Of a DNA stretch of 37,590 nt, positions 1,440 to 33,917 are shown one piece after another. Positions within the stretch are counted from its first letter, which is position 1; each line of letters opens with the position of its first letter. Under the pieces are notes generated by a model. It worked only from the letters and a program-made list of their open reading frames with translations, searched no databases and was not told the DNA's origin. Source of the DNA: a virus; IMG/VR virus record IMGVR_UViG_3300029309_000090, positions 314 through 37,903 of that record; one strand, given 5' to 3'. The position numbers and the translations under genes are program-made.

Positions 1440-1790
1440 ATGAACGATATAGTAACAATAATTCAACAAGTAGGATTCCCCATTGCAGCAGCTCTTGGAT
1501 TAGGGTGGTTCATATACAAATTAATAATGCGTATTGTTGATGGCATGGAAACAAAGTTAGATATTGTAGATGATAAGGTTGCTCAACAAATAAGTGCGAT
1601 AGAAGAAAGGCTTGGTACAAAATTAGACTCACAACATGGTATTTTGGTAGCATTGATAGATAGAATTAGAAGCCTTGATAATGAGATTATTAGACAAGAC
1701 ACATTAATAAAAACTATACTAGGAGTACCACAATTAATTGATAGCAATAAGATTGCTAAGGCGGACAGAGATGACCAAAGAAAAGATTAA
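1440..1790 (+). CDS. Holin-like / membrane-anchored coiled-coil protein (BhlA/UviB-like architecture)
   Basis: A 116-residue protein with one transmembrane segment at about residues 10-33 (GFPIAAALGLGWFIYKLIM), followed by a charged helix likely to form a coiled coil. This single-TM plus charged-helix layout is typical of BhlA/UviB/XhlA-type phage holin-like proteins. The call rests on architecture, not on a diagnostic motif. Its 3' end overlaps the csgF start by 20 nt, which ties it to the curli cassette. It could instead be a membrane partner of that cassette. Confidence 0.5.
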   Translation: MNDIVTIIQQVGFPIAAALGLGWFIYKLIMRIVDGMETKLDIVDDKVAQQISAIEERLGTKLDSQHGILVALIDRIRSLDNEIIRQDTLIKTILGVPQLIDSNKIAKADRDDQRKD

Positions 1791-2274
1791 ATATAAAACT
1801 GACTGGTTTAAGTTATCAGCATGGTCTGGGATATTATTATTCTGTCTTTTGTTTTGGGTCTCAATATTTAGCCTGTCTTTAAAAGCTGATGAAATGGTGC
1901 ACAAGTTTAAGTCTCCATCTTTCAGTGGGATCGGCACCTCAGCACATTATCTAACTATTGAGAACCAGCAATACACTAGAAAAATGACTATCAAGGAAGA
2001 GATCAAGGCTCTTCAAGAACAACTTAAAAGAGATAAAGAAAATACAACACTAGCCCGATTTATTAGAAACTTAGAAAGCCGTATATACGCTCAGATATCA
2101 AGACAGATTGTTGAGAATATGTTTGGCGAAACACCATCTACAGAAGGTATATTTGAACTAGAAGGTAATACAATTTCTTACACTATTGAAGACGGCATTA
2201 TAACTTTGACTATAACCCAAGCAGATGGCACAGAAACTATTATTCAACTTCCTTTCGGTGATTTTACTTTCTAG
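1771..2274 (+). CDS. csgF: CsgF-like curli assembly/transport protein
   Basis: A 167-residue protein with a charged N-terminus, a hydrophobic segment at about residues 15-37 ending in LKADE (signal peptide or anchor), and then HKFKSPSFSGIG. That phrase matches the mature CsgF N-terminus of the FxFRNPNFGG type, which inserts into the CsgG channel. The C-terminal half (FELEGNTISYTIEDG, ITQADGTETIIQLPFG) fits the CsgF beta-rich end, which binds nucleator or substrate. The central charged helix (KEEIKALQEQLKRDKEN) is longer than in enteric CsgF. The start is the ATG at 1771, since an upstream in-frame ATG at 1738 would lie deep inside the previous gene. csgG overlaps its 3' end by 50 nt. Confidence 0.82.
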   Translation: MTKEKIKYKTDWFKLSAWSGILLFCLLFWVSIFSLSLKADEMVHKFKSPSFSGIGTSAHYLTIENQQYTRKMTIKEEIKALQEQLKRDKENTTLARFIRNLESRIYAQISRQIVENMFGETPSTEGIFELEGNTISYTIEDGIITLTITQADGTETIIQLPFGDFTF

Positions 2275-3100
2275 TTGTGCGTTAAGTTTTGACCCAATAG
2301 AAAATAATTTACCTCCACTAGAAAGAGTAGAACGAGCAAAAATAGGCACCCTTTTAGTGCCAGCACTAGCTGATGTGAAGCTTTCAAGCAATCAAAAGCC
2401 AGTTGTTGCTATCTATACAGGATCCTTTGCAGATCAAACTGGTCAAAGAAGAAGCAACTCATCATATGCAACCTTTAGTTCTGCTGTAACCCAAGCCCCC
2501 GATGCATACCTAATAAGAGCACTCAAGCACGCAGGATCTAGACATGGAGGCTTCTTTGAAGTTGTTGAGCGTGTAGGTCTAGACAATGTTACTAAAGAAC
2601 GCCAGATTATTCGTAGCACACGCCAGGACTTCGGGGAGGAACAGAAATTACCAGCTCTAGTCTTCGCTGGTTTAATAATGCATGGCGGTGTGATATCTTA
2701 TGAGAGTAATATTGAAAGTGGTGGTGCTGGTGCCAGATATCTTGGAATTGGCATGTCCAGACAGTTTCGTAGAGACACCGTTACAGTATCTCTTAGAACA
2801 GTTTCTGTTACCACAGGCAAAGTATTACTAGAGGTACTTGTTACAAAGACTATACTTAGTGCTTCTTTAGATCAGGATGTATTTCGCTTTGTAAGTGATG
2901 AGACTGAGCTAGTGGAGATAGAGAATGGTTTAGTAAGAAATGAATCAATAGACATTGCTTTGCAGACGGCAATAGAGACAGCGGTATTACAAACTATAAA
3001 AGAAGGAAACCTAAAAGGTTATTGGAGTATAAATGAATTTGAAAAGATTGAAATTGATAAGCCTTGTGATGCTGATGAGTGCATCAACATACGGGGCTGA
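2225..3100 (+). CDS. csgG: CsgG-like outer-membrane curli secretion lipoprotein
   Basis: A 291-residue protein close to the usual CsgG length. It has a lipoprotein signal with lipobox LLSSC (Cys18). Family landmarks appear in order: VAIYTGSFADQTGQ, FSSAVTQAPDAYLIRALKHAG (constriction-loop region and first helix), ERQIIRSTRQ, GGVISYESNIESGG, ARYLGIG, VSLRTVSVTTGKVL, KTILS and VFRFV, then a helix corresponding to the C-terminal helix. CsgG forms a nonameric outer-membrane pore that exports curlins. Aligned by eye with E. coli, the pore Phe56 equivalent is kept, while Tyr51 and Asn55 positions appear to be Ser and Thr, with a Tyr two residues on. It overlaps csgF (50 nt) and the curlin gene (68 nt). 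Confidence 0.93.
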   Translation: MAQKLLFNFLSVILLSSCALSFDPIENNLPPLERVERAKIGTLLVPALADVKLSSNQKPVVAIYTGSFADQTGQRRSNSSYATFSSAVTQAPDAYLIRALKHAGSRHGGFFEVVERVGLDNVTKERQIIRSTRQDFGEEQKLPALVFAGLIMHGGVISYESNIESGGAGARYLGIGMSRQFRRDTVTVSLRTVSVTTGKVLLEVLVTKTILSASLDQDVFRFVSDETELVEIENGLVRNESIDIALQTAIETAVLQTIKEGNLKGYWSINEFEKIEIDKPCDADECINIRG

Positions 3101-3752
3101 TAACGAAATCTATGTCAGCCAGGCTGGTGCAAATGCAAATATTGATCTGGAGCAACTAGGCTCATCAAACATTATTGGTGGCTTAGATTCAGTAGCAGGT
3201 ACTCTGACCCCGTTAGATCTTGATGGCTTAAATCTTACGCTTGATATAAATCAAATCGGTAATAGCAATAAATTCTTAGGCGATATCTATGGTGACAATG
3301 TAACTGGATTTTTTGAGTTTGATGGTGATAGTAACACCTTCACAATACAAGCAGATCCTAATGACACCTATGGAATATCTAGCTCTAACTACAATGTTGA
3401 TGTTACTGGTAGTAGCAACACCTTTACACTTGATACAGGAACCTCAGCCTTATCAGAGACTTTGGATCTTGACTGGATAGTGCAAGGCGACAGCAATACA
3501 TTTGATTTTGATATAAACTATGATGGAGCAACCAACTATGTAGATGTTGATGGTGATTCAAACACAGTCAACTTTACAGGAAGCGGATACGCTGGTGGTT
3601 ATTTTTATTTAGATCAAACAGGAAGCAGTAGAACATTTGATATTACGCAATCATCAACTTTGGCAGCAGATTGGCTTAAGATACTTAGCACTGGTTCTAA
3701 TGGCACCGTGTGCATCGTACAAGACGATAGCGGAACCGCAACAAGCTGTTGA
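3033..3752 (+). CDS. Curlin-repeat secreted protein, candidate CsgG substrate (CsgA/CsgB-like)
   Basis: A 239-residue protein with a Sec signal peptide (MNLKRLKLISLVMLMSASTYG, likely cut near residue 21). The mature part is built of about eight repeats of roughly 22-33 residues around a (Q)xGxSN(T/x)F core: SN or SR at residues 45, 78, 100, 128, 154, 176, 199 and 222. Early repeats keep the curlin Q-x-G-x-x-N phrase (SQAGANAN, QLGSSN, NQIGNSN, DQTGSS). Later ones use D/T in place of Gln. It is Asp/Ser/Thr/Asn-rich and ends with two Cys (227 and 239). Curlins are amyloid fibre subunits exported by CsgG. GGAG lies 7 nt before the ATG. The gene overlaps csgG and the FecR gene. Confidence 0.78.
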   Translation: MNLKRLKLISLVMLMSASTYGADNEIYVSQAGANANIDLEQLGSSNIIGGLDSVAGTLTPLDLDGLNLTLDINQIGNSNKFLGDIYGDNVTGFFEFDGDSNTFTIQADPNDTYGISSSNYNVDVTGSSNTFTLDTGTSALSETLDLDWIVQGDSNTFDFDINYDGATNYVDVDGDSNTVNFTGSGYAGGYFYLDQTGSSRTFDITQSSTLAADWLKILSTGSNGTVCIVQDDSGTATSC

Positions 3753-4782
3753 TGTAGGAAATGTTTCGGAGCTCAATGGCTCTGCTCAGGTGGTTAGAGA
3801 TGAACCATTTGTGGCGGAGCTTGACTTCCAAGTAAAACAAGACGATCAAGCCGTAACCTCTAACGGCAGGATGGCTATTACTTTTTTAGATGATTCCATC
3901 GTTAGACTAACTGAACACTCAAGACTTACTATAAATGAATATGTTTTTGACCCCAATCCTTCTAAATCTAAGATGGCTATATCTTTTGGGCTTGGTACGG
4001 TCAGATTTGTTTCTGGTGCTTTAAATAAAATTGATAAACAGAATATTCAACTATCAACCCCAACTGCTAATATTGCTATTAGAGGTACAGACTTTACTTG
4101 CACGGTTGATGAGCTGGGGCGTTCTCTCATTATTCTATTGCCTGGTCTTGATGGTTTATCTAGCGGTGAGATTGTCGTTACTACGGCTGCGGGTTCTGTG
4201 GTCCTTAACCAACCCTACGAAGCAACGACAGTATCAGTTTTTGAAAATGAGCCATCAAAACCAGTAATACTAGATTTAGATTTAGCCCAAATAGACAATA
4301 TGCTTATTGTCAGCCCACCGAAACAAACTGCTTTATCTGCTGAAGAAAATACTACTGAGAAATCTAGCAATATATTAGATGTAGATTATCTAGAGTTTGA
4401 AGAGCTAGACATAGATTATCTGGATGAAGATGCCTTAGAGTTTTCAGAATTAGATATAAACTATCTTGATGTAAACTTTCTTGAAGATTTACTAGATGTT
4501 ATTGATGCTCTAGCTATTGCGGATGAAGAAGATCAGCTAGCAGCTAATATAGGTGCTGTGAATATTACAGGCACACAGTTTGGGCAAGATACAGATACGC
4601 AGGTAACAACATTTCTTACTGGTCAAACCCTTACTCTTATGCGTAGTGTAAGTGAGACTGCTAGAGTAGATATAGATTCTAGCAGCAGTTATACTGTAAT
4701 CTTTATACAAGATGGCATATCAAGAGTCATTAAGATAAACGGAGGATCTGGCGGTGTTATTAAAATAACCCAGAGTAATTAA
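3637..4782 (+). CDS. FecR-domain secreted/periplasmic protein with acidic LDxDYL repeats
   Basis: A 381-residue protein. The N-terminal half has a FecR-domain pattern: VSELNGSAQVVRD, LTEHSRLTINEYVFDP, ISFGLGTVRFVSG, IQLSTPTANIAIRGTDF. Free-standing FecR-domain proteins are often encoded next to CHASE2 cyclases, as here. The second half is very acidic, with four L-D-(V/I)-(D/N)-(Y/F)-L units coded at about 4375-4481, then a beta-rich tail. The start is uncertain. TTG 3637 gives a signal-peptide-like stretch (RYLALVLMAPCASY) and a 116-nt overlap with the curlin gene. ATG 3700 gives 360 residues, a 53-nt overlap and no clear signal peptide. I prefer TTG. No FecI-type sigma factor is nearby. Confidence 0.78.
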   Translation: MILRNHQLWQQIGLRYLALVLMAPCASYKTIAEPQQAVDVGNVSELNGSAQVVRDEPFVAELDFQVKQDDQAVTSNGRMAITFLDDSIVRLTEHSRLTINEYVFDPNPSKSKMAISFGLGTVRFVSGALNKIDKQNIQLSTPTANIAIRGTDFTCTVDELGRSLIILLPGLDGLSSGEIVVTTAAGSVVLNQPYEATTVSVFENEPSKPVILDLDLAQIDNMLIVSPPKQTALSAEENTTEKSSNILDVDYLEFEELDIDYLDEDALEFSELDINYLDVNFLEDLLDVIDALAIADEEDQLAANIGAVNITGTQFGQDTDTQVTTFLTGQTLTLMRSVSETARVDIDSSSSYTVIFIQDGISRVIKINGGSGGVIKITQSN

Positions 4783-6533
4783 TGAACAGGGTACTATTCA
4801 TATTACTTATAGTTCTAGGACTACCGCTTGTCTTTCAAAGCACACCAACAGAAATACTTAAGTTAAAAGTTTTTGACTACTTAGTACCAGAAAAAGAAGA
4901 GTCTGGTTTTTTTACTATACTAAACATAACTGAAGAGGATGTAGCAAGGGAGGGTGGTTATCCTTTACCAAGACAAAGATTAGCTGAAATACATATAGAG
5001 CTTTTACAAAAAGGTGCTTTAGGTGTGGGCTGGGTTCTTTCTTTCCCCCAACCAGACAGGCTAGGTGGTGATGAAGTATTTGCAGAAGCTCTTTGCTACG
5101 GTGGATCTGTTATAGGAATGTTTGAGGATGGTAGTGGTAACTATCCAGATACTTCTGGAACTGTAGTGCTTGGCAATAATAACAATGCAGGTATTTATTC
5201 TACAGGCGTTGTGCAAAACATAGACATTCTTAAAAACTGTTCTAATCAAGGTATAGCCGTTGCACCAACAGAAGTTGATAATCTAGTAAGAAGAGTTCCC
5301 TTAATGATGAAAACACCAGATGGTTTTGTTTCTGCTTACGGAACTGAAGTGATGAAAGTATTAGCAGGCAATAGCACATATATTATAAAAACTAATGATA
5401 ATGGTATAGAAGAAATAACTGTCCAGGGACTAGCTCCAGCAAAAACAGATACGCTTGGCAGAAAGTGGATATCTTGGGTAGACACCAAACAAACTACTCT
5501 AGAAGAAATGGATGTAAAAGGTAGATATGTTTTTGTTGGTTTTACTGCTAGTGGGATCATGCCACAAGTGGCAACACCAGTTGGATTATTAGAGCCACAT
5601 AAAATTCAAGCAGCATTATCTGAGTCAATTTTGATTCAAGACTCACCATATATCCCAGATTGGCACTTAGCAGCCGAAATTTTGATTTTCGCAATTTTTG
5701 TCGCTTCAGTTTGGCTTGTAATCAATTTTCTGACTATAACGAAGGGTCTAGGTATGCTTGGAGTTTTACTGCTCTCTACGGGCTTCTTAGGAGCTTTTAG
5801 CGTTCAGAAAGGCATTTTACTGGATTTTTCATGGACTTTTGTCTCAGAAATCATAACTTCTACGGTTGCCTTCTATTTAAACTACCAAAAACAATATAAA
5901 TTGCGTCAACAGATCAAAAAACAGTTTGAACATTATTTAGATCCAAGACAAGTAAAACAACTACAAGATAATCCTGACCTGCTGAGACTCGGGGGAGAAA
6001 AAAAATATTGCACATTTTTATTTACAGATGTCAGAGGATTTACAAATCTATCTGAAAAACTAGAACCAGAACAAGTAACAGAGATAATGAACAAAGTTCT
6101 AACAGCTCAAGTAACTTGCATACAAGCACATGGAGGTATGGTAGATAAGTTTATAGGTGATGCTTGTATGGCAATATTTAACGCACCGCTAGATTTAGAT
6201 AACCATGAAGCAAGAGCTGTAGCTTGTGCCCAGGATATGCGTACCGCTATCAAACAACTACAAAAAGAGTTACCAGAGCCAATAGCTATAGGCATAGGCG
6301 TAAACTCTGGTGAGGCTGTTATTGGCAACATGGGATCAGATACTAGGTTTGATTTTTCTGGTATAGGTGATGCGATTAATGTTGCAGCAAGACTAGAGTC
6401 TGCAACCAAAGAAGTTGGTGAAGACATACTGATAGGGCATGAGACTGCAAAAAGTGTTGATTTTAGTTTAAAATTACTTAAACCCATAAGAGTTAAGGGT
6501 AAAAGCAAACCTTTAGCTATTTATACAATATAA
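4782..6533 (+). CDS. CHASE2-domain class III adenylate cyclase (transmembrane)
   Basis: A 583-residue protein. An N-terminal membrane segment (about 1-20) is followed by a CHASE2-type extracytoplasmic sensor domain (about 21-290), three membrane segments (about 296-315, 322-340 and 347-367), a linker helix, and a class III nucleotide cyclase domain (about 405-583). Catalytic residues look complete: metal-binding D416 (FTDVRGFT) and D460 (KFIGDACMAIFNAP), purine-selecting K456 and D530 (SGIGDAINVAARLE), and N533 and R537. The Lys/Asp pair indicates ATP, hence cAMP. The domain order matches full-length bacterial CHASE2 cyclases, so this is not a remnant. The start overlaps the FecR stop by one base (TAATG), implying coupled translation. 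Confidence 0.93.
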   Translation: MNRVLFILLIVLGLPLVFQSTPTEILKLKVFDYLVPEKEESGFFTILNITEEDVAREGGYPLPRQRLAEIHIELLQKGALGVGWVLSFPQPDRLGGDEVFAEALCYGGSVIGMFEDGSGNYPDTSGTVVLGNNNNAGIYSTGVVQNIDILKNCSNQGIAVAPTEVDNLVRRVPLMMKTPDGFVSAYGTEVMKVLAGNSTYIIKTNDNGIEEITVQGLAPAKTDTLGRKWISWVDTKQTTLEEMDVKGRYVFVGFTASGIMPQVATPVGLLEPHKIQAALSESILIQDSPYIPDWHLAAEILIFAIFVASVWLVINFLTITKGLGMLGVLLLSTGFLGAFSVQKGILLDFSWTFVSEIITSTVAFYLNYQKQYKLRQQIKKQFEHYLDPRQVKQLQDNPDLLRLGGEKKYCTFLFTDVRGFTNLSEKLEPEQVTEIMNKVLTAQVTCIQAHGGMVDKFIGDACMAIFNAPLDLDNHEARAVACAQDMRTAIKQLQKELPEPIAIGIGVNSGEAVIGNMGSDTRFDFSGIGDAINVAARLESATKEVGEDILIGHETAKSVDFSLKLLKPIRVKGKSKPLAIYTI

Positions 6534-6541
6534 GGATAATT

Positions 6542-7024
6542 ATGGCATTAAAAAATTTACTCAAAAATGTAGTCGGTGCAGTAGCTCCAACACTAGGTAC
6601 AGCAATCGGTGGACCTATGGGTGGTATGGCAGCTAATTTAATAGCTGAGACACTTGGGGTACCAAACAACCCGAAGTCGATAGAAAAAGCTATTGCTGAA
6701 GCAACACCAGAACAAATGTTACAACTTAAAAAAGCAGAACAAGACTTTGAAAAACAAATGAAAGAGCTTGATGTTGATGTTTACAAGCTTGAAGCACAAG
6801 AAAAACAAGATGCAAGAAAACATTTTTCAAAAGATTGGACAACAAGAATTATGGGCATAGCTACACTAGGAGGCTTCCTTGGTTACATATTTTTAGTAAC
6901 TTTGCAGCCACCAGAACAAAATAGTGAAGCTTTAATTAATTTAGTTCTAGGATATTTAGGTGGATTGGCTAGTGCTGTGATATCTTTTTATTTTGGAGCT
7001 TCTAAATCTAAGGAGGACAAATGA
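6542..7024 (+). CDS. Phage holin (3-TM type)
   Basis: A 160-residue protein. A Gly/Ala-rich N-terminal helix (GAVAPTLGTAIGGPMGGMAA) is followed by a long charged helix, then two clear membrane segments (about 100-120, MGIATLGGFLGYIFLV; and 131-153, LINLVLGYLGGLASAVISFYFG). This matches the phage '3TM holin' architecture. Holins form inner-membrane lesions that let endolysin reach the wall. It starts 8 nt after the cyclase. The lysozyme is not adjacent but about 25 kb away at 31888. Confidence 0.72.
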   Translation: MALKNLLKNVVGAVAPTLGTAIGGPMGGMAANLIAETLGVPNNPKSIEKAIAEATPEQMLQLKKAEQDFEKQMKELDVDVYKLEAQEKQDARKHFSKDWTTRIMGIATLGGFLGYIFLVTLQPPEQNSEALINLVLGYLGGLASAVISFYFGASKSKEDK

Positions 7025-7600: not shown

Positions 7601-9277
7601 GTGGCTGGATTTAAACTTACAACATTTACGGGACTTAATAAAAAAGTATCACCTAGGCTCTTGCCAGATGATATGGCACAAAACGCACAAAATGTTTTTT
7701 TAGATTCAGGCAGAATAGAAGGCATACCAACAGATGTGAATGATCCCTCTGAATCAGGCAACACTCATCCAGCATCACACATATCAACAACTACAAGAAC
7801 TATATTCAAAGCTACCTCATCTTCTTGGTTTACTTTTACAGATGATGTAGATGTTATAAAAAGTCCTATCAAAGAAGACACACATGGAAGATTTTACTTT
7901 ACAGGGTCTGGTAACTTTCCTAAGTACACATCTTTATCTTCTGGAGTTTCTGGGTCTGGACCATTTCCAACAGCGTCATTCAGGCTTGGATTACCTACCC
8001 CAGGAGCCTTTACAGCAGCCCCAAGTGTTAATAACGCCACAGCGGATGATGGTGCTGCAATAAGTTCTAGGGCATATTTATATACAGAAATAACGACTTT
8101 TGGTGAAGAAGGACCACCATCCGAGGTAACATCAGCAGACATTGTTGATGCACAGAATGGATCTACAGTAACACTTACTCTACCAGCTGCATCATCAGGA
8201 AATCTATCCATAGCAAAAAGAAGAATCTATAGAACTGATATTAATGGTGTATTTAGGTTTGTAAAGGATGTTAGCGGAACATCTGCTGGGACAACAACAG
8301 AGGCAGTTACAGACGACCTTCTCGGGGAAGAAATAGAATCAGCAGACAACTTAGCACCACCAGACGAAACTACTTCAGATCACCCAGATGGACCAATGCT
8401 TGGTATTACAACAATGCCTAATGGTATTACAGCAGGATTCTCAGGGAACACATTACTGTTTAGTGAATCTTATTTACCGCATTCTTACCCTTTAGCAAAC
8501 CAGCTAACGACTCAGGATGACATAGTAGCAATAGCATCTATTGCTTCTGGTCTGTTAGTAACAACTAAAGGTAAACCGCTTATGGCTTCTGGTACAGACC
8601 CAAGTGCTATGGCTATGGTTGAAATAGATGCAAATTTACCATGCGTCAACAAAAGATCATTAGTTGATATGGGTGAGTATGCTATTTACTCATCGCCAGA
8701 TGGCTTAGTGTTAGCATCTAATTCAGGCATACAGCTTATAACAGAGCAGTTGCTTACTAGAGATCAGTGGCAAACAGAATATTATCCAAGCAATATAGAA
8801 GCATATGAATACGAAGGTAAGTATGTTGCATTTACTTTTGACGGATCTGACAACTCAACCAAGAAGGGTTTTATATTTGATCCTAGGGGCGGCAAAAATG
8901 CTTTAGTAAACCTCAACTTCTATGCAACAGCAGGATTCAACGATAGAGAAAATGATGAGCTTTATTTAGTGATTGATGGCACTTTGAAAAAGTTTGCTAG
9001 AGGTACAACCAAAAGGTCATATCTATGGAAATCAAAAGAGTTTTTTAGCAACAGACCTTTGTCCCCAGGTGTAGCTAAAGTAAATGCAGAGGCATATAAC
9101 GCACTTACATTTAAACTATTTGCAGATGGTTCTCTCAAGCATACGCAGACTGTAGCTAATTCAGACCCCTTTAGACTGCCAGGAGGCTACAGAGGTAAAG
9201 TTTTTGAAATACAGCTGGAGGGAACAGATATCATTAACGAAGTTTGCGTTTATGAAAGTCCACAGGAGATAGTCTAG
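7601..9277 (+). CDS. Putative tail structural protein (tail hub/tube-associated)
   Basis: A 558-residue protein starting with GTG one base after the nuclease stop. The opening (FTGLNKKVSPRLLPDDMAQNAQNVFLDSGRIEG) is typical of phage tail-tube or stabilisation proteins that begin by describing loading of virion data-like beta-propeller folds. Residues around 160-245 form a fibronectin-like beta segment (ITTFGEEGPPSEVTSADI). The rest is beta-rich, with phrases such as YAIYSSPDGLVLAS. There is no enzyme motif. A role comparable to podovirus tail-hub proteins (P22 gp10-like) is inferred from position before the large fibre gene and from overall character. Confidence 0.55.
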   Translation: MAGFKLTTFTGLNKKVSPRLLPDDMAQNAQNVFLDSGRIEGIPTDVNDPSESGNTHPASHISTTTRTIFKATSSSWFTFTDDVDVIKSPIKEDTHGRFYFTGSGNFPKYTSLSSGVSGSGPFPTASFRLGLPTPGAFTAAPSVNNATADDGAAISSRAYLYTEITTFGEEGPPSEVTSADIVDAQNGSTVTLTLPAASSGNLSIAKRRIYRTDINGVFRFVKDVSGTSAGTTTEAVTDDLLGEEIESADNLAPPDETTSDHPDGPMLGITTMPNGITAGFSGNTLLFSESYLPHSYPLANQLTTQDDIVAIASIASGLLVTTKGKPLMASGTDPSAMAMVEIDANLPCVNKRSLVDMGEYAIYSSPDGLVLASNSGIQLITEQLLTRDQWQTEYYPSNIEAYEYEGKYVAFTFDGSDNSTKKGFIFDPRGGKNALVNLNFYATAGFNDRENDELYLVIDGTLKKFARGTTKRSYLWKSKEFFSNRPLSPGVAKVNAEAYNALTFKLFADGSLKHTQTVANSDPFRLPGGYRGKVFEIQLEGTDIINEVCVYESPQEIV

Positions 9278-12200
9278 TGGCAAATGAATTTCTCAAAAAG
9301 AAAAAGAAAAATCTAACAGCCCGTGGGAGCTTTCCAATACCAAGAGATTTCAGTATTGAAGGTAAAAGATTCGCACAATCGGTACAAGATACACTGCAAC
9401 AACTAAAAGGTGAAAAGGGAAATATTCTTGATAGAGCAGTAACCTTTCAAGACCTTATAGATACTGGCATAGCAAAACAAACTTTTAGTGTAACAGGCGG
9501 TGGCTCTGACTTTGTTATTGATGACAATGACAAGAAAGACGGAGTTGCTAATGCTACAGCACCAACGGGTTTCACAGCTTCAGGTGCCTTTCAAAATATA
9601 TTATTGTCTTGGGATTTTCCTGACTATGCTGGTCATTCGCACACAGAGATATTTGTTAGCAACTCTAATTCTTTTGCCTCAAGAACCTTTTTAGCACAAA
9701 CCACTGCTTCAGTATTTAGTCATCAAGTAGGCAATGCAGCAACTAAATATTATTGGATTCGTCATGTAAACCAGAACGATGAGGCTGGTCCTTTCAACAG
9801 TGAAACTGGCACATCTGCAAGTACAGCTGTAGATGTGGGTGCGGTGATGACACAGCTATCAGAAGAAATAAAACTACTGCCAGGCTTCAACACTCTAAAC
9901 ACCGACATGAATATAACTATTAGTGGCACCCAAAGAACCTTACAAGCTACCTTAGAAAATATTAATACACTTGCTGCAACAGCTTCAACAAATGTTTCAA
10001 ACCTCACTTCAAACACACCAAGAGTCATCAGATCAGATAGTGAGCCCACACAAAGATCTGACGGTACATCTTTGCAAGCTGGAGATATATGGATTGACAC
10101 GGACTCAAGCCCAAACCAAAACGAATTATTTGTTTATACAGGAAGCACTTTTGCAGCTACTACAGCTGGCTCAACATCTTCTTCAGATCAAACCTTGTCA
10201 ACATCGATTGCATCAAATGGTACAGCTATATCACAAAATGCATCTGACATATTGTTGGTAGCTGGTGTCAGCGATAATGCTGACATATCAACATCTATAA
10301 ATATAACATCTCTTAATGCCTCTATAACAAATTCTACTACTGGTTTGCAGGCAAACGCTAATGCTATAAGCACATTGTCTGGAACAGTAACAAGTCAGGG
10401 CAATACCATTAGTACACTATCAAATAATGTAACAGAGCTACAAAACACCCTTACTGGTTTTAACTCATCATCCACGGTAGCAACTGCAATATCAGGTTTA
10501 CAAACCTCTATAAACCAAAACGGTGCAAATATAACAACGGTATCGCAAAGCGTTAGTGCTTTGAACAACGAAGTAGATTTGAAAGCCACAACATTTATAC
10601 AAGATAATCCACCAACTGCAACAGCCATAGGAGATCTCTGGATTGATTCTAACGACAGCAACAAGCTTTATCGTGCTACAGCTACAACAAACTCAAACTG
10701 GGTTGCTGTAGGAGATACAAGCGGTCTTCATGTTTTTGCTCAAGATAATGAACCTACAGCAAGACCAGATAGTTCAACCTTGCAAGAGGGAGATATTTGG
10801 TTTGATACAAGTGATAATAAAAAACAATATAGATACAACGGCAGTGCTTTTGTTTTAGTAGATGATTCTAGAATATCAGCAAACTCAAGTGCAATAAGCA
10901 CTCTAGATAGTGAAGTTACAGCTCTAGATGGAGTGGTAACATCAAACTCAAGCAAAATTCTTGCATTAGAAAACACTGTAGATGATAGCTCAACAGGGGT
11001 AAATGCTACAGCAAGTGCTTTGTCAACACTGTCAAATCAAGTCACATCAATACCTGTAAACTTCATACAGGCAAACGCTCCTACAGGAACTCTTACAACA
11101 GGAGACCTGTGGATAGATTCAGATGATAATCAGCTGTATAGATATGATGGCAACAATTGGGTATCAGTAAGAGACTCTGTTATTACATCTAACTCAGAAG
11201 CAATCACATCCTTACAAAATGTTGTTAACAATGGCTCAACAGGTGTTTCAGCTAATGCTTCTGCAATATCAACATTGCAGACAGAGGTATTTGGTTCTGG
11301 TTCTGCAAGTGCTTCAAGAATAGATGCACTTGAATCAACAGTAAACAACGGGACTTCTGGTGTTACTGCAAACGCAAGTGCGATTTCAGCTTTGAGTACA
11401 AAAGTTGATACTAAAAATAAATCTTTTGTTGGTACAGATCAGCCAGCTAACAACACAGCTAATGACTTGCGTACAGGAGATTTGTGGATAGAAACAGATG
11501 ATAACAATAAACTTTATAGATGGAGCGGTAGTGCTTGGGTGCCTCTGGCTCCCACAGGACTACAAACTTTTGCTCAAAGCACTACGCCAACAGCTACATC
11601 TATTGGAGATATTTGGATAGATACAGGAGATCAAAACAAAATATACCGTTGGAACGGCAGTACATGGCAACTCCTAAGAGATGGTCTTATAACTGCAAAT
11701 GCAAGCTCTATAACTGCTATATCATCTGAGCTTGGTATTTCTTTTGATGCTAGAGTTACAACTAACAACGGCACTAAAAATCTAGATGTGCAAACGATGT
11801 CTTCTGGATCATCAACTGCACACAATATAACAAATGCAGATATCACTAATGGTGTATTTTTATCACTGAAAGGGTTTTCAAGCACTGGAGGTTTGAGTGC
11901 TGAACAACTTAACAGAACATTTAAAGTTGTATCAAGGCTGACATCAACTACTTTGCGTGTTGAGGTAGCTGGCACCAATGCTAATGCTAGTGCTACATCT
12001 TCAATAGTTACAAATGGAGCAACTATAGGAACCAATGCTGGGGTTCTACAACTTGCTGAAACTACAACCAATACACTAGGACAAGCAGATGCTTCCTATG
12101 TTTTACAAGTTAATAGTAACGGTCATATAGCTGGTTTTGTAGTACAAAGCAGTACAAGCCCAAGCGGTCAACAAACAAGCAATGTAGTATTCCAAGCAGA

Positions 12201-23236: not shown

Positions 23237-24049
23237 TTAAGATAGCAAAGTATTTACATTCTCACAAGCTTCACTCAGATGGTCTTCTGACAAGTGTGCG
23301 TATCTATTTACAATATTCGGACTAGACCAGCCACCTAAATGTTGAAGTGTGTAAAGAGGTGTGCCATTTTGCACATGATACGAAGCCCAGGTGTGTCTAA
23401 TGTCGTGCCATCTAAATCCCTCCAGTCCAGCTTTCTTTAATGCGTTATACCAGCCCGTGTTAGACGCTCTGCTGATCTTTCTGCCAGCATAGGTAAAAAC
23501 ATAAGGGCTTTTCTTTTCAATCGATTCTAAGAGCTCTCTGCACTTCTGATTTATTGGCACGCATAAAGATCTACCATTCTTGGTTTCAACACCATCTATG
23601 GCTATTTGATTTTCTTTAACATCTTCCCATTTTAAATTGAAGCAGTTGGACATGCGAACCCCAGTTAGGAGGGAAAAGACAAAAGGCTTCTGGAGGTGTT
23701 TGGGTAGAACCCTATGAAGCTTTTTGATGTCTTCCACAGTAAAGTATTTTGTTCGCATAGCTTGAACCTTCACCTGTTTTATAATGGGCTTGTTATCCAA
23801 CCACCCCAACTCTTCATAAGCGTACATAAGCACAGCTCTGAAGAAACTTAAATATCTGTTTACTGTTCCTGGAGATCCTTTGATGCCAGACTTAATCTTT
23901 GCAATATCGCTTTTCTCTAAAGCATTTATATCTTTATCTTCTAACAGTGGATCAAAATATTTTCTGTAGGTAAAATCATTCTTACCCATGTTATTGAATC
24001 TGTAATACTCTTTAACTGCTTTCTTCCATGTCTTCATTGCTTTTCTCAA
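23237..24049 (-). CDS. int: Tyrosine-recombinase phage integrase
   Basis: A 270-residue integrase with an N-terminal core-binding domain and a complete catalytic set: R132 (LLTGVRMSN), K157 (ETKNGR), H215 and R218 (WHDIRH), W241 in the second His/Trp position (LGGWSS), and nucleophile Y250 (VNRYAHL). This enzyme integrates and excises the phage at att sites, so the phage is probably temperate. The start is TTG 24049 or ATG 24037. It is convergent with the giant virion gene across a 58-bp gap and ends the leftward recombination operon. No repressor or excisionase could be identified in the window. Confidence 0.95.
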   Translation of the reverse strand: MRKAMKTWKKAVKEYYRFNNMGKNDFTYRKYFDPLLEDKDINALEKSDIAKIKSGIKGSPGTVNRYLSFFRAVLMYAYEELGWLDNKPIIKQVKVQAMRTKYFTVEDIKKLHRVLPKHLQKPFVFSLLTGVRMSNCFNLKWEDVKENQIAIDGVETKNGRSLCVPINQKCRELLESIEKKSPYVFTYAGRKISRASNTGWYNALKKAGLEGFRWHDIRHTWASYHVQNGTPLYTLQHLGGWSSPNIVNRYAHLSEDHLSEACENVNTLLS

Positions 24050-31007: not shown

Positions 31008-31117
31008 AATACTTACACAAACTATGGGACTGGCTTAAATCAGCTTGTTTATGGGTATGGCATAAGCTTGTAGCTGTTTGGCATTGGCTTGTTGGTCTAG
31101 TTAACAAAGATGGCTAA
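31004..31117 (+). CDS. 37-residue Trp-repeat membrane-active peptide
   Basis: A 37-residue ORF whose ATG overlaps the preceding stop (ATGA) and whose stop overlaps the next start (ATGGCTAA), so it is coupled on both sides. The hydrophobic core has three WxW pairs at residues 8/10, 17/19 and 26/28, an exact nine-residue period (27 bp in DNA). The peptide would be an amphipathic Trp-rich membrane helix. A pinholin-like, toxin or membrane-remodelling role is possible but unproven. Confidence 0.6.
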   Translation: MKYLHKLWDWLKSACLWVWHKLVAVWHWLVGLVNKDG

Positions 31118-31415
31118 ACCTACTGGAGGTCTCACCGCTTGGTTCGGGAAAGGAAAGAAAGGAGACTGGGTAGACATATCTGCACCCAAAAAGAAAGGTC
31201 GTTTTCAACCATGCGGTAGAAAGTCTGCATCTAAAAGCAAAAGAGGATATCCAAAGTGTGTCCCAAGATCCAAAGCAAACTCTATGACCAAAGCACAAAT
31301 CAAGTCTGCTGTGCGTAGAAAAAGAGCTGTCAAGCAAGGTGTAGGTGGAAAACCAACAAATGTTCGGACTATAATTAGAAAGAAAAGGAAGACCCGTGGC
31401 AAGAAAAAAAGCTAA
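31110..31415 (+). CDS. Basic Cys-containing phage protein (101 aa)
   Basis: A 101-residue, very basic protein. Phrases: GGLTAWFGKGKKGDWVDISAPKKKG, PCGRKSASKSKRGYPKCVPRSKANSMTKAQIKSAVRRKRA. The paired C...C (PCGR and YPKCVP) may bind a metal. The Lys/Arg content (about one third) suggests nucleic-acid binding. Proteins with the same GYPKCVP...SMTKAQ order occur in marine phages and giant viruses, by recollection. Function unknown. Confidence 0.7.
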   Translation: MAKPTGGLTAWFGKGKKGDWVDISAPKKKGRFQPCGRKSASKSKRGYPKCVPRSKANSMTKAQIKSAVRRKRAVKQGVGGKPTNVRTIIRKKRKTRGKKKS

Positions 31416-31692
31416 ATCTATACCTAGAACCACCAAAGGCAAAGGTGCTAACTACAGACCCACTAAGTCTGGTGCTGGCATGACTGCTAAAGGTGTGCGT
31501 GCTTATCGTAAGGCAAACCCAGGATCTAAGCTCAAGACTGCTGTCACGGGGAAAGTAAAAAAAGGGAGCAAGGCTGCAAAAAGGCGTAAGTCATTCTGTG
31601 CTAGATCTGCTGGACAAATGAAGAAGTTTCCCAAGGCAGCAAAGAACCCTAACTCAAGACTAAGACAAGCAAGGAGAAGGTGGAAATGTTAA
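31396..31692 (+). CDS. DUF6321-like basic phage protein (98 aa)
   Basis: A 98-residue protein with a GTG start, overlapping its neighbour by 20 nt. The C-terminal half (GMTAKGVRAYRKANPGSKLKTAV, KSFCARSAGQM, AKNPNSRLRQARRRWKC) matches the pattern I associate with DUF6321, including the KSFCAR and RRWKC Cys residues. It is about one third Lys/Arg and is likely to bind nucleic acid. It follows the GYPKCVP-type gene, a pairing that recurs in phages I recall. Confidence 0.72.
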   Translation: MARKKAKSIPRTTKGKGANYRPTKSGAGMTAKGVRAYRKANPGSKLKTAVTGKVKKGSKAAKRRKSFCARSAGQMKKFPKAAKNPNSRLRQARRRWKC

Positions 31693-32411: not shown

Positions 32412-33917
32412 TCACATATTCTTTAAAATGTGTGCAATAACATCTACTGTCCAACCATTACCCAACATCTTATATCTCTGTGTATTAGAAACACCATCAG
32501 TATAATTATCTGGAACAGTCTGAAGTCTCTCACACTCTAGAGGTGTAAGCTTTCTCCAATAGACATCATTTTTTGTCAGCACATTATCTTTCTGAACTGT
32601 GGATAAGTTGTTAGTCTTTTGGTCTCTTCTAAGTTCAAGCATCTGTGTAGTCTTACCAGCTACTGAACCTTTATGATCTTGTCTGACACCATCAACTTTA
32701 TATCTGCCAACCATTCTGCCACAAGCCACTTTTGGTTCTCTGTTGCCACCACCCATAGTATTTAGAGTTGGTGCTTTACCTTCTGGACTATAAACTCTTT
32801 TCAAAATGTCATGTCCATTGATATCAACAGCCGTGCCTATTTGAATTAGTTTATCTGCATTACCATGTGTAAGAGTGGGCGACTTTCCTTCATCACTATA
32901 AACCCTTTGTTTAGTTTCATAGACACCATCTTTGATCTCAAACTCCATGATCTGCTTATCAAAAGCATCTGTTGTTATTCCTAAAACTTCTTTTAATTTA
33001 TACCAAACATCATCACTTGGTATTGCAAAACTGCTATCAGTTCTAAACCAATGCTCTACTTTTGTAAGTGGCATGTCAGTTTCTATTGCTATCGTTTTGT
33101 TTGTTTTGCCAGAATAAGTTTTAAAAACCCTCAATAAATGCTGTAAGTTTGGTATATCAACTTTATGCTTTCTAACTTTTACTTTTTCAATAAGTTTTCC
33201 AACTTGTTGTGGTCTTCCTTTGTTATCACAAGCAAGATAATCTCCCTGTCTACCATTTTTGACATATTCCATTGCTGATAAATTACTAGCCTTTTCTTTA
33301 GTTTGATCTATCATGCAGTTTCTCTCCCCATTTCTTTTAACAAACTTGTCAGACATTTTTGTAAATTTCTGGGGTTCTTTCTCTAAAATATCTTTTAAAA
33401 CTATGCCCTTGTCTTTTGGTTGTGTTATGCCCTCAATGTTTGTCCAATAAAGCCTCTGCCTCGACTGGGCGGAAAGAAGAGAAGAATTAATCAAGATAGG
33501 CTCAATACCAAATAAAATCTCTGGATAACACTTTGACACTTGTTCTGATATCACATCAATAAACTCTTTCTTCATTCTTACATTTTCTAATAAGAAGTAT
33601 TTAGGTTTTATTTCTTTAAGTAGTCTAATAAACTCAAAGAACAATGCTGATCTAGGATCATCAAAAGCTAATTGTTTGCCAGCAAAACTAAAGCCCTGAC
33701 AAGGAGATCCAGCTAATATTAGATCGACATCTTTAAAATCTTCTGCTTTTAATTTGGTAATATCTCCTACCTGGACTGTTTCTGGATAGTTTTTTTGTGT
33801 GATTTCAATAGCATATTTATCAATCTCACTCGCATAATAAGTGTCGACAGATACTCCTAATTTATTAAGAGCAATCTGCCCACAACTCATACCATCAAAT
33901 AATGATAAGACCTTCAC
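32412..33917 (-). CDS. DNA (cytosine-5) methyltransferase
   Basis: A 501-residue C5 methyltransferase. Motif I LSLFDGMSCG, motif IV GSPCQGFS with catalytic C73, motif VI LLENV with E111, motif VIII QSRQRLYWTNI, motif IX LTPLECERLQTVPDNY and motif X MLGNGWTV are all present, so it should be active. The long target-recognition region (about 200-440) contains a helical segment (HWFRTDSSFAIPSDDVW) and a duplicated RVYSxEGKxPTL phrase. The target site cannot be read. No cognate restriction enzyme is visible, so it is probably an orphan that masks phage DNA. It is convergent with the lysozyme gene. Confidence 0.93.
   Translation of the reverse strand: MKVLSLFDGMSCGQIALNKLGVSVDTYYASEIDKYAIEITQKNYPETVQVGDITKLKAEDFKDVDLILAGSPCQGFSFAGKQLAFDDPRSALFFEFIRLLKEIKPKYFLLENVRMKKEFIDVISEQVSKCYPEILFGIEPILINSSLLSAQSRQRLYWTNIEGITQPKDKGIVLKDILEKEPQKFTKMSDKFVKRNGERNCMIDQTKEKASNLSAMEYVKNGRQGDYLACDNKGRPQQVGKLIEKVKVRKHKVDIPNLQHLLRVFKTYSGKTNKTIAIETDMPLTKVEHWFRTDSSFAIPSDDVWYKLKEVLGITTDAFDKQIMEFEIKDGVYETKQRVYSDEGKSPTLTHGNADKLIQIGTAVDINGHDILKRVYSPEGKAPTLNTMGGGNREPKVACGRMVGRYKVDGVRQDHKGSVAGKTTQMLELRRDQKTNNLSTVQKDNVLTKNDVYWRKLTPLECERLQTVPDNYTDGVSNTQRYKMLGNGWTVDVIAHILKNM

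Follow-up and report, generated by a model that had tools for sequence, protein, structure and literature searches.

The window analysed here, a stretch of 37,590 nucleotides of viral DNA, comprises bases 314-37903 of the 42,380-base IMG/VR record IMGVR_UViG_3300029309_000090, and its plus strand carries a cassette of curli secretion genes followed by genes for a FecR-domain protein and a CHASE2-domain adenylate cyclase. The cassette begins with the gene of a small protein of 116 amino acids (1440-1790), which has one predicted membrane segment and a predicted coiled coil. It continues with the genes of a CsgF-like coupling factor (1771-2274; Pfam CsgF, E = 7.6e-17; phrog_35372), the CsgG outer-membrane pore with the lipoprotein signal LSSC (2225-3100; Pfam CsgG, 1.6e-42), a curlin-like secreted protein (3033-3752), an exported FecR-domain protein (3637-4782; Pfam FecR, 3.4e-9), whose start is uncertain (TTG at 3637 or ATG at 3700), and a CHASE2-domain class III adenylate cyclase (4782-6533; Pfam CHASE2, 3e-23; Guanylate_cyc, 4.7e-21). 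A preliminary description of this DNA had listed the last five of these genes as an operon, and this is borne out, as all five open reading frames are open over these coordinates and neighbouring frames overlap; the term "fused", used there for the secretion and signalling genes, is true only in the sense that they share one operon. The cassette consists of six genes, since the 1440-1790 gene also belongs to it. The CsgF, CsgG, FecR, CHASE2 and Guanylate_cyc matches all exceed the curated cut-offs of Pfam, which confirms these gene identities. The window has CsgF, CsgG, a curlin gene and FecR in the conserved order of a phage curli module, which often includes a cyclase, and it has the CsgG pore, CsgF and curlin substrate of type VIII secretion, where the curlin alone is under the Pfam cut-off.

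The CsgG protein aligns over almost its full length with the E. coli CsgG whose structure has been solved (E = 3e-38), and the CsgF profile finds no match among the solved structures. The curlin repeat of the 3033-3752 protein scores 17.4 bits against a Pfam cut-off of 20.7 (Curlin_rpt, E = 0.0043) and is weak by Pfam alone; when the curlin profile was compared with the chains of solved structures, no curlin chain was matched by sequence. In an alignment of 25 phage relatives, the G-x-x-N pairs and the two C-terminal cysteines are invariant, and the AlphaFold2 model is a β-solenoid (predicted local distance difference test score, 85.5; predicted template modelling score, 0.81), whose structure matches include viral proteins named "Curlin associated". 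The CsgA fibril structure (8enq) is also among the matches, with a Z-score of 11.6 but a root mean square deviation (rmsd) of 8.7, and other solenoids score higher, so that the predicted fold supports a solenoid, not a curlin in particular. The earlier assignment of this protein as a curlin is thus not carried by Pfam, but it is supported by the G-x-x-N pattern, the solenoid model and the named viral relatives.

In the cyclase, all the catalytic residues that had been claimed are found, these being the metal-binding aspartates D416 and D460, the purine-selecting K456 and the pair N533 and R537; Ser526 is at the second purine position, where CyaB of P. aeruginosa has a threonine. These residues are those of a class III adenylate cyclase. 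A role as part of an anti-phage system was considered and rejected: the cyclase domain does match profiles of Pycsar cyclases (2.9e-28 at best), but this domain is widely shared, and the other cassette members have no match in PADLOC. In one close relative (G006; 51,979 bases), the two parts of the cyclase gene lie at opposite ends of the record (L264 and L266), an arrangement that a circular or permuted genome of some 52 kb would be expected to give.

At least 303 relatives of CsgG and at least 395 relatives of the FecR protein are found in IMG/VR contigs. When the five-gene neighbourhood was surveyed across viral contigs, csgG was followed by the curlin gene and FecR, in conserved order, in 98 of the 98 loci with enough downstream sequence, and by the cyclase in 79, from which it follows that pore, substrate and sensor are retained as a group. 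Bacterial curli loci have a different composition, as neither FecR nor a CHASE2-cyclase was found beside 19 different csgG loci of Alphaproteobacteria, Bacteroidota and other bacteria, examined with flanks of varied length, some of only 2-3 kb on one side. This is in agreement with the published statement that bacterial curli operons do not contain FecR and cyclase genes. In the CsgG tree, every viral sequence is on one side of a 100/98 branch and the 15 bacterial sequences are on the other; the window sequence is nested within other viral contigs, and two myophages fall outside that group. A CsgG relative with 39.8% identity is encoded in OR851715.1 (Salmonella phage S.Kent 1-2-1), a record of 1,499 bases that may be a piece of host DNA and not of a phage.

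The 1440-1790 gene is ahead of csgF in all 110 loci in which this was scored, it is doubled in about 15 loci, and members of its family also stand before csgF in Pelagibacter phage HTVC008M and Methylophilales phage Melnitz. A search with this gene alone gave 80 loci, all 86-100% identical to the query and thus covering near relatives only, in which csgF is next in 75 of the 75 loci with room for it, csgG is present in 64 of 64, and FecR and the cyclase are present in 48 of 48. Among 50,697 phage records the gene is restricted to carriers of the cassette, and its product is the best conserved cassette protein (median identity 75%, compared with 59-65% for the others). Both its position and its copy pattern point to its being the gene labelled as a histidine kinase in the published pelagiphage module (PMC9599517), in which that gene comes first; in the window the gene is in the right place, without a kinase profile. 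The kinase label itself is rejected, as the protein has no kinase profile match and HATPase_c, detected in 14 of 14 control genomes, is found in none of 14 carrier records.

The model of the FecR protein shows an N-terminal helix (residues 2-29), the FecR domain, an acidic linker predicted with low confidence and a small β-tail predicted with moderate confidence. The FecR domain is structurally close to the PupR signalling domain (Z-score 16.0 over 137 residues, rmsd 2.5). In the model only a signal-type helix precedes this domain, leaving no room for an anti-sigma part, and no sigma factor is among the gene families found in the window. The function of an iron-responsive anti-sigma regulator is therefore unsupported. 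The tail (about residues 335-381; 4639-4779) is curlin-repeat-like: in most relatives the last 45 or so residues have the pattern Q-x-G ... N-G-G ... I-x-I-x-Q, and profile comparison matches the tail with the C-terminus of the curlin-like protein (E = 8.9e-5, probability 60%). In a stricter scan the tail reached 33.8%, whereas nine other segments of the FecR protein did not exceed 0.8% and 30 column shuffles did not exceed 7.7%; the likeness is specific but modest. FecR matches are present in 139 of 385 alphaproteobacterial genomes, where many sit in proteins between several hundred and several thousand residues long, and the matches listed end by about position 240 of the 371 profile positions, without the C-terminal half of the phage protein. 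A cyclase or CHASE2 profile match is also present in four of 20 such alphaproteobacterial FecR regions.

Phage genes surround the cassette, which bears out its phage origin, and in other window-type records it lies between the same phage genes. The window encodes tail proteins, a tyrosine integrase (23237-24049, minus strand; phrog_1, 7.3e-52; PF00589), Erf and RecE-type recombination proteins, a replication initiator, DnaB, a lysozyme, a methyltransferase and the terminase small subunit; elsewhere in the same record there are a terminase large subunit, read from its sequence, and a portal/head-tail adaptor match. The structural protein at 7601-9277 has relatives in 168 phage records (best about 33% identity), mainly of Vibrio phages, plus Burkholderia, Escherichia and Stx phages. 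Relatives of 30-40% identity occur in four of 369 gammaproteobacterial genomes, without the cassette in the regions examined; none was found in 385 alphaproteobacterial genomes, in a search that had no positive control and shows little.

The integrase, the marker of the phage lineage of the window, is present in all four window-type records of at least 31.7 kb; a fifth record, a fragment of 27.9 kb, has none. The four relatives share replication genes as well, and their integrases are 76-77% identical. The other carriers tested have no PF00589 integrase (0 of 15, among them eight of 53-63 kb and both myophages). DNA polymerase A (PF00476), by which HTVC023P-type phages are defined, is absent from the record of the window and from three long relatives, and is present in the HTVC023P-type phage MW574966 and six other carriers; as records may be fragments, these absences are not proof. 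The presence of the integrase and the absence of DNA polymerase A indicate that the window belongs to a further, integrase-bearing carrier lineage. An assignment to the HTVC023P type is rejected, since DNA polymerase A is absent and bases 1-50000 of MW574966 have matches to no more than two window proteins. These two are encoded by small genes at 31110-31692, one product being 85% identical, and are a sign of recent exchange between the lineages. An integrase is expected of a temperate phage, and its conservation supports the lysogen mentioned in the preliminary description. The lineage may form lysogens; no repressor, attachment site or integrated host copy was identified for this lineage, whose records may be fragments, and searches for tRNAs and for attachment sites at tRNA ends found none. 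An Rfam scan of the window gave nothing. The DNA methyltransferase (32412-33917; 501 amino acids) matches phrog_116 over residues 1-501 but over no more than 282 positions of the profile, which suggests a long insertion.

The combination of genes had been thought to be undescribed, and this claim is untenable. The set CsgF-CsgG-CsgA/B-FecR-(CsgA/B)-adenylate cyclase was reported in 2022 in nine podoviruses and in myophages, and was found to be expressed according to metatranscriptomes (PMC9599517); the pelagimyophage and Melnitz versions are described in PMC7029224 and PMC9004378. The module of the HTVC023P-type podoviruses and pelagimyophages has the same order as the window and the small gene in front, whereas the window phage has an integrase and DnaB and lacks DNA polymerase A and a second curlin gene. 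HTVC008M and Melnitz have all six gene families in the same order, with proteins 29-46% identical to those of the window; these differ in being large myophages with a second curlin gene between FecR and the cyclase. In HTVC008M this second curlin (L002:10558-11880) has an N-terminal PA14 domain (2.7e-6) ahead of the curlin repeats. Melnitz is stated to be without csgA and csgB (PMC9004378); its deposited record annotates two curlin associated repeat genes (L003:8854-9573 and 10632-11648). Bacterial curli operons (csgBAC/csgDEFG and the alphaproteobacterial csgH-csgF-csgG) share CsgF, CsgG and curlin-repeat proteins with the window and differ in their neighbours, as described above, with CsgH in the Limimaricola and Rhizobium loci. 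In bacterial FecR and CHASE2 clusters (Campylobacterota, Burkholderia BiofilmReg), an exported FecR-domain protein likewise adjoins a CHASE2 sensor, whereas curli genes are not reported alongside. New, as far as found, are the sixth gene with the doubt on its label as a kinase, the tail of the FecR protein and the carrier lineage with an integrase.

The cassette probably allows the infected cell to make amyloid-like surface fibres and to sense their assembly. A phage-encoded, curli-like fibre with its own FecR-CHASE2-cyclic AMP (cAMP) signalling arm is the best explanation, held with about even confidence. Once a cell is infected, or in a lysogen, the outer-membrane pore would be built from CsgG and coupled by CsgF; the curlin-like protein would reach the periplasm through Sec, exit by the pore and stack on the cell as a β-solenoid fibre. 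The FecR protein would reside in the periplasm, where its curlin-like tail, carried by the flexible acidic linker, could dock either on curlin subunits or on the growing fibre, and this docking would be reported to CHASE2, setting how much cAMP is made for a CRP-type regulator of the host. The small membrane protein encoded at 1440-1790 is the obligate sixth partner, and the phage would be expected to benefit. The signalling arm is supported by bacterial precedents: CHASE2 cyclases cluster with FecR-domain outer-membrane proteins (PMC9239204), a FecR protein and a CHASE2 kinase share one biofilm operon (PMC5192318), and CHASE2 cyclases of S. meliloti answer to a protein via an outer-membrane barrel (PMC13001267). 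The secretion-sensing cAMP switch proposed earlier gains some support from this pairing and from the curlin-like sequence of the FecR tail. Several observations weigh against this explanation. CsgE was not found in the loci, about one locus in five has no cyclase, clumping was not seen in Melnitz-infected cultures (PMC9004378), and convergence of short β-strands could explain the likeness of the FecR tail to curlin repeats. Carrier phages also encode no protein that binds cyclic nucleotide monophosphates, so that the cAMP output would run through the host. In its most specific form, an integrating phage would have a closed fibre-assembly sensor, in which the FecR tail docks on curlin, CHASE2 reads this docking and cAMP reports the progress of the coat; this form is rather unlikely. 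If it were true, the lysogen or infected cell would change its surface and its gene expression together.

It is also conceivable, at lower probability, that the fibre or pore mainly shields an infected cell or a lysogen against other phages, or makes hosts aggregate ("sibling capture"), with the cAMP arm serving regulation only. This was proposed in PMC7029224 and PMC9599517, and the PA14 domain of the second HTVC008M curlin would suit the end of an adhesive fibre, but the absence of clumping in Melnitz cultures counts against it as well; such a function is compatible with, and does not exclude, the signalling fibre. Less probably still, CsgG and CsgF have been repurposed as a regulated outer-membrane pore that times lysis, with the other genes as accessories, as proposed for Melnitz with a structural argument (PMC9004378). 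Many lineages place the cassette beside the conserved small membrane protein encoded at 6542-7024 in the window (phrog_1544; on either side of the cassette), which has a weak 3TM-holin resemblance (PF11351, E = 0.029, under the cut-off). However, the lysis argument rested on missing curlin genes, which the deposited Melnitz record annotates, the curlin gene follows csgG in every one of the 98 loci, and the lysozyme of the window is about 25 kb away. Import of nutrients or iron by the CsgG pore, with FecR as an iron-citrate regulator, was suggested in PMC9599517 and is improbable, because the phage FecR protein has no room for an anti-sigma part, no sigma factor is among the window families found and the curlin gene is always present. 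A chimeric assembly of bacterial curli DNA and phage DNA, for which no evidence was found, is refuted by the same junctions in many independent contigs, by window-type records with the same flanking phage genes and by the 100/98 branch that parts viral from bacterial CsgG, leaving it a negligible chance.

Since 2020-2022 the phage curli module has been known with no function assigned to it, and three findings make it easier to test. The FecR tail is a concrete, deletable link between the fibre and the cAMP signal. The obligate sixth gene has seemingly been labelled as a histidine kinase without having a kinase domain. The integrase-bearing carrier lineage, finally, raises the possibility of lysogenic conversion.

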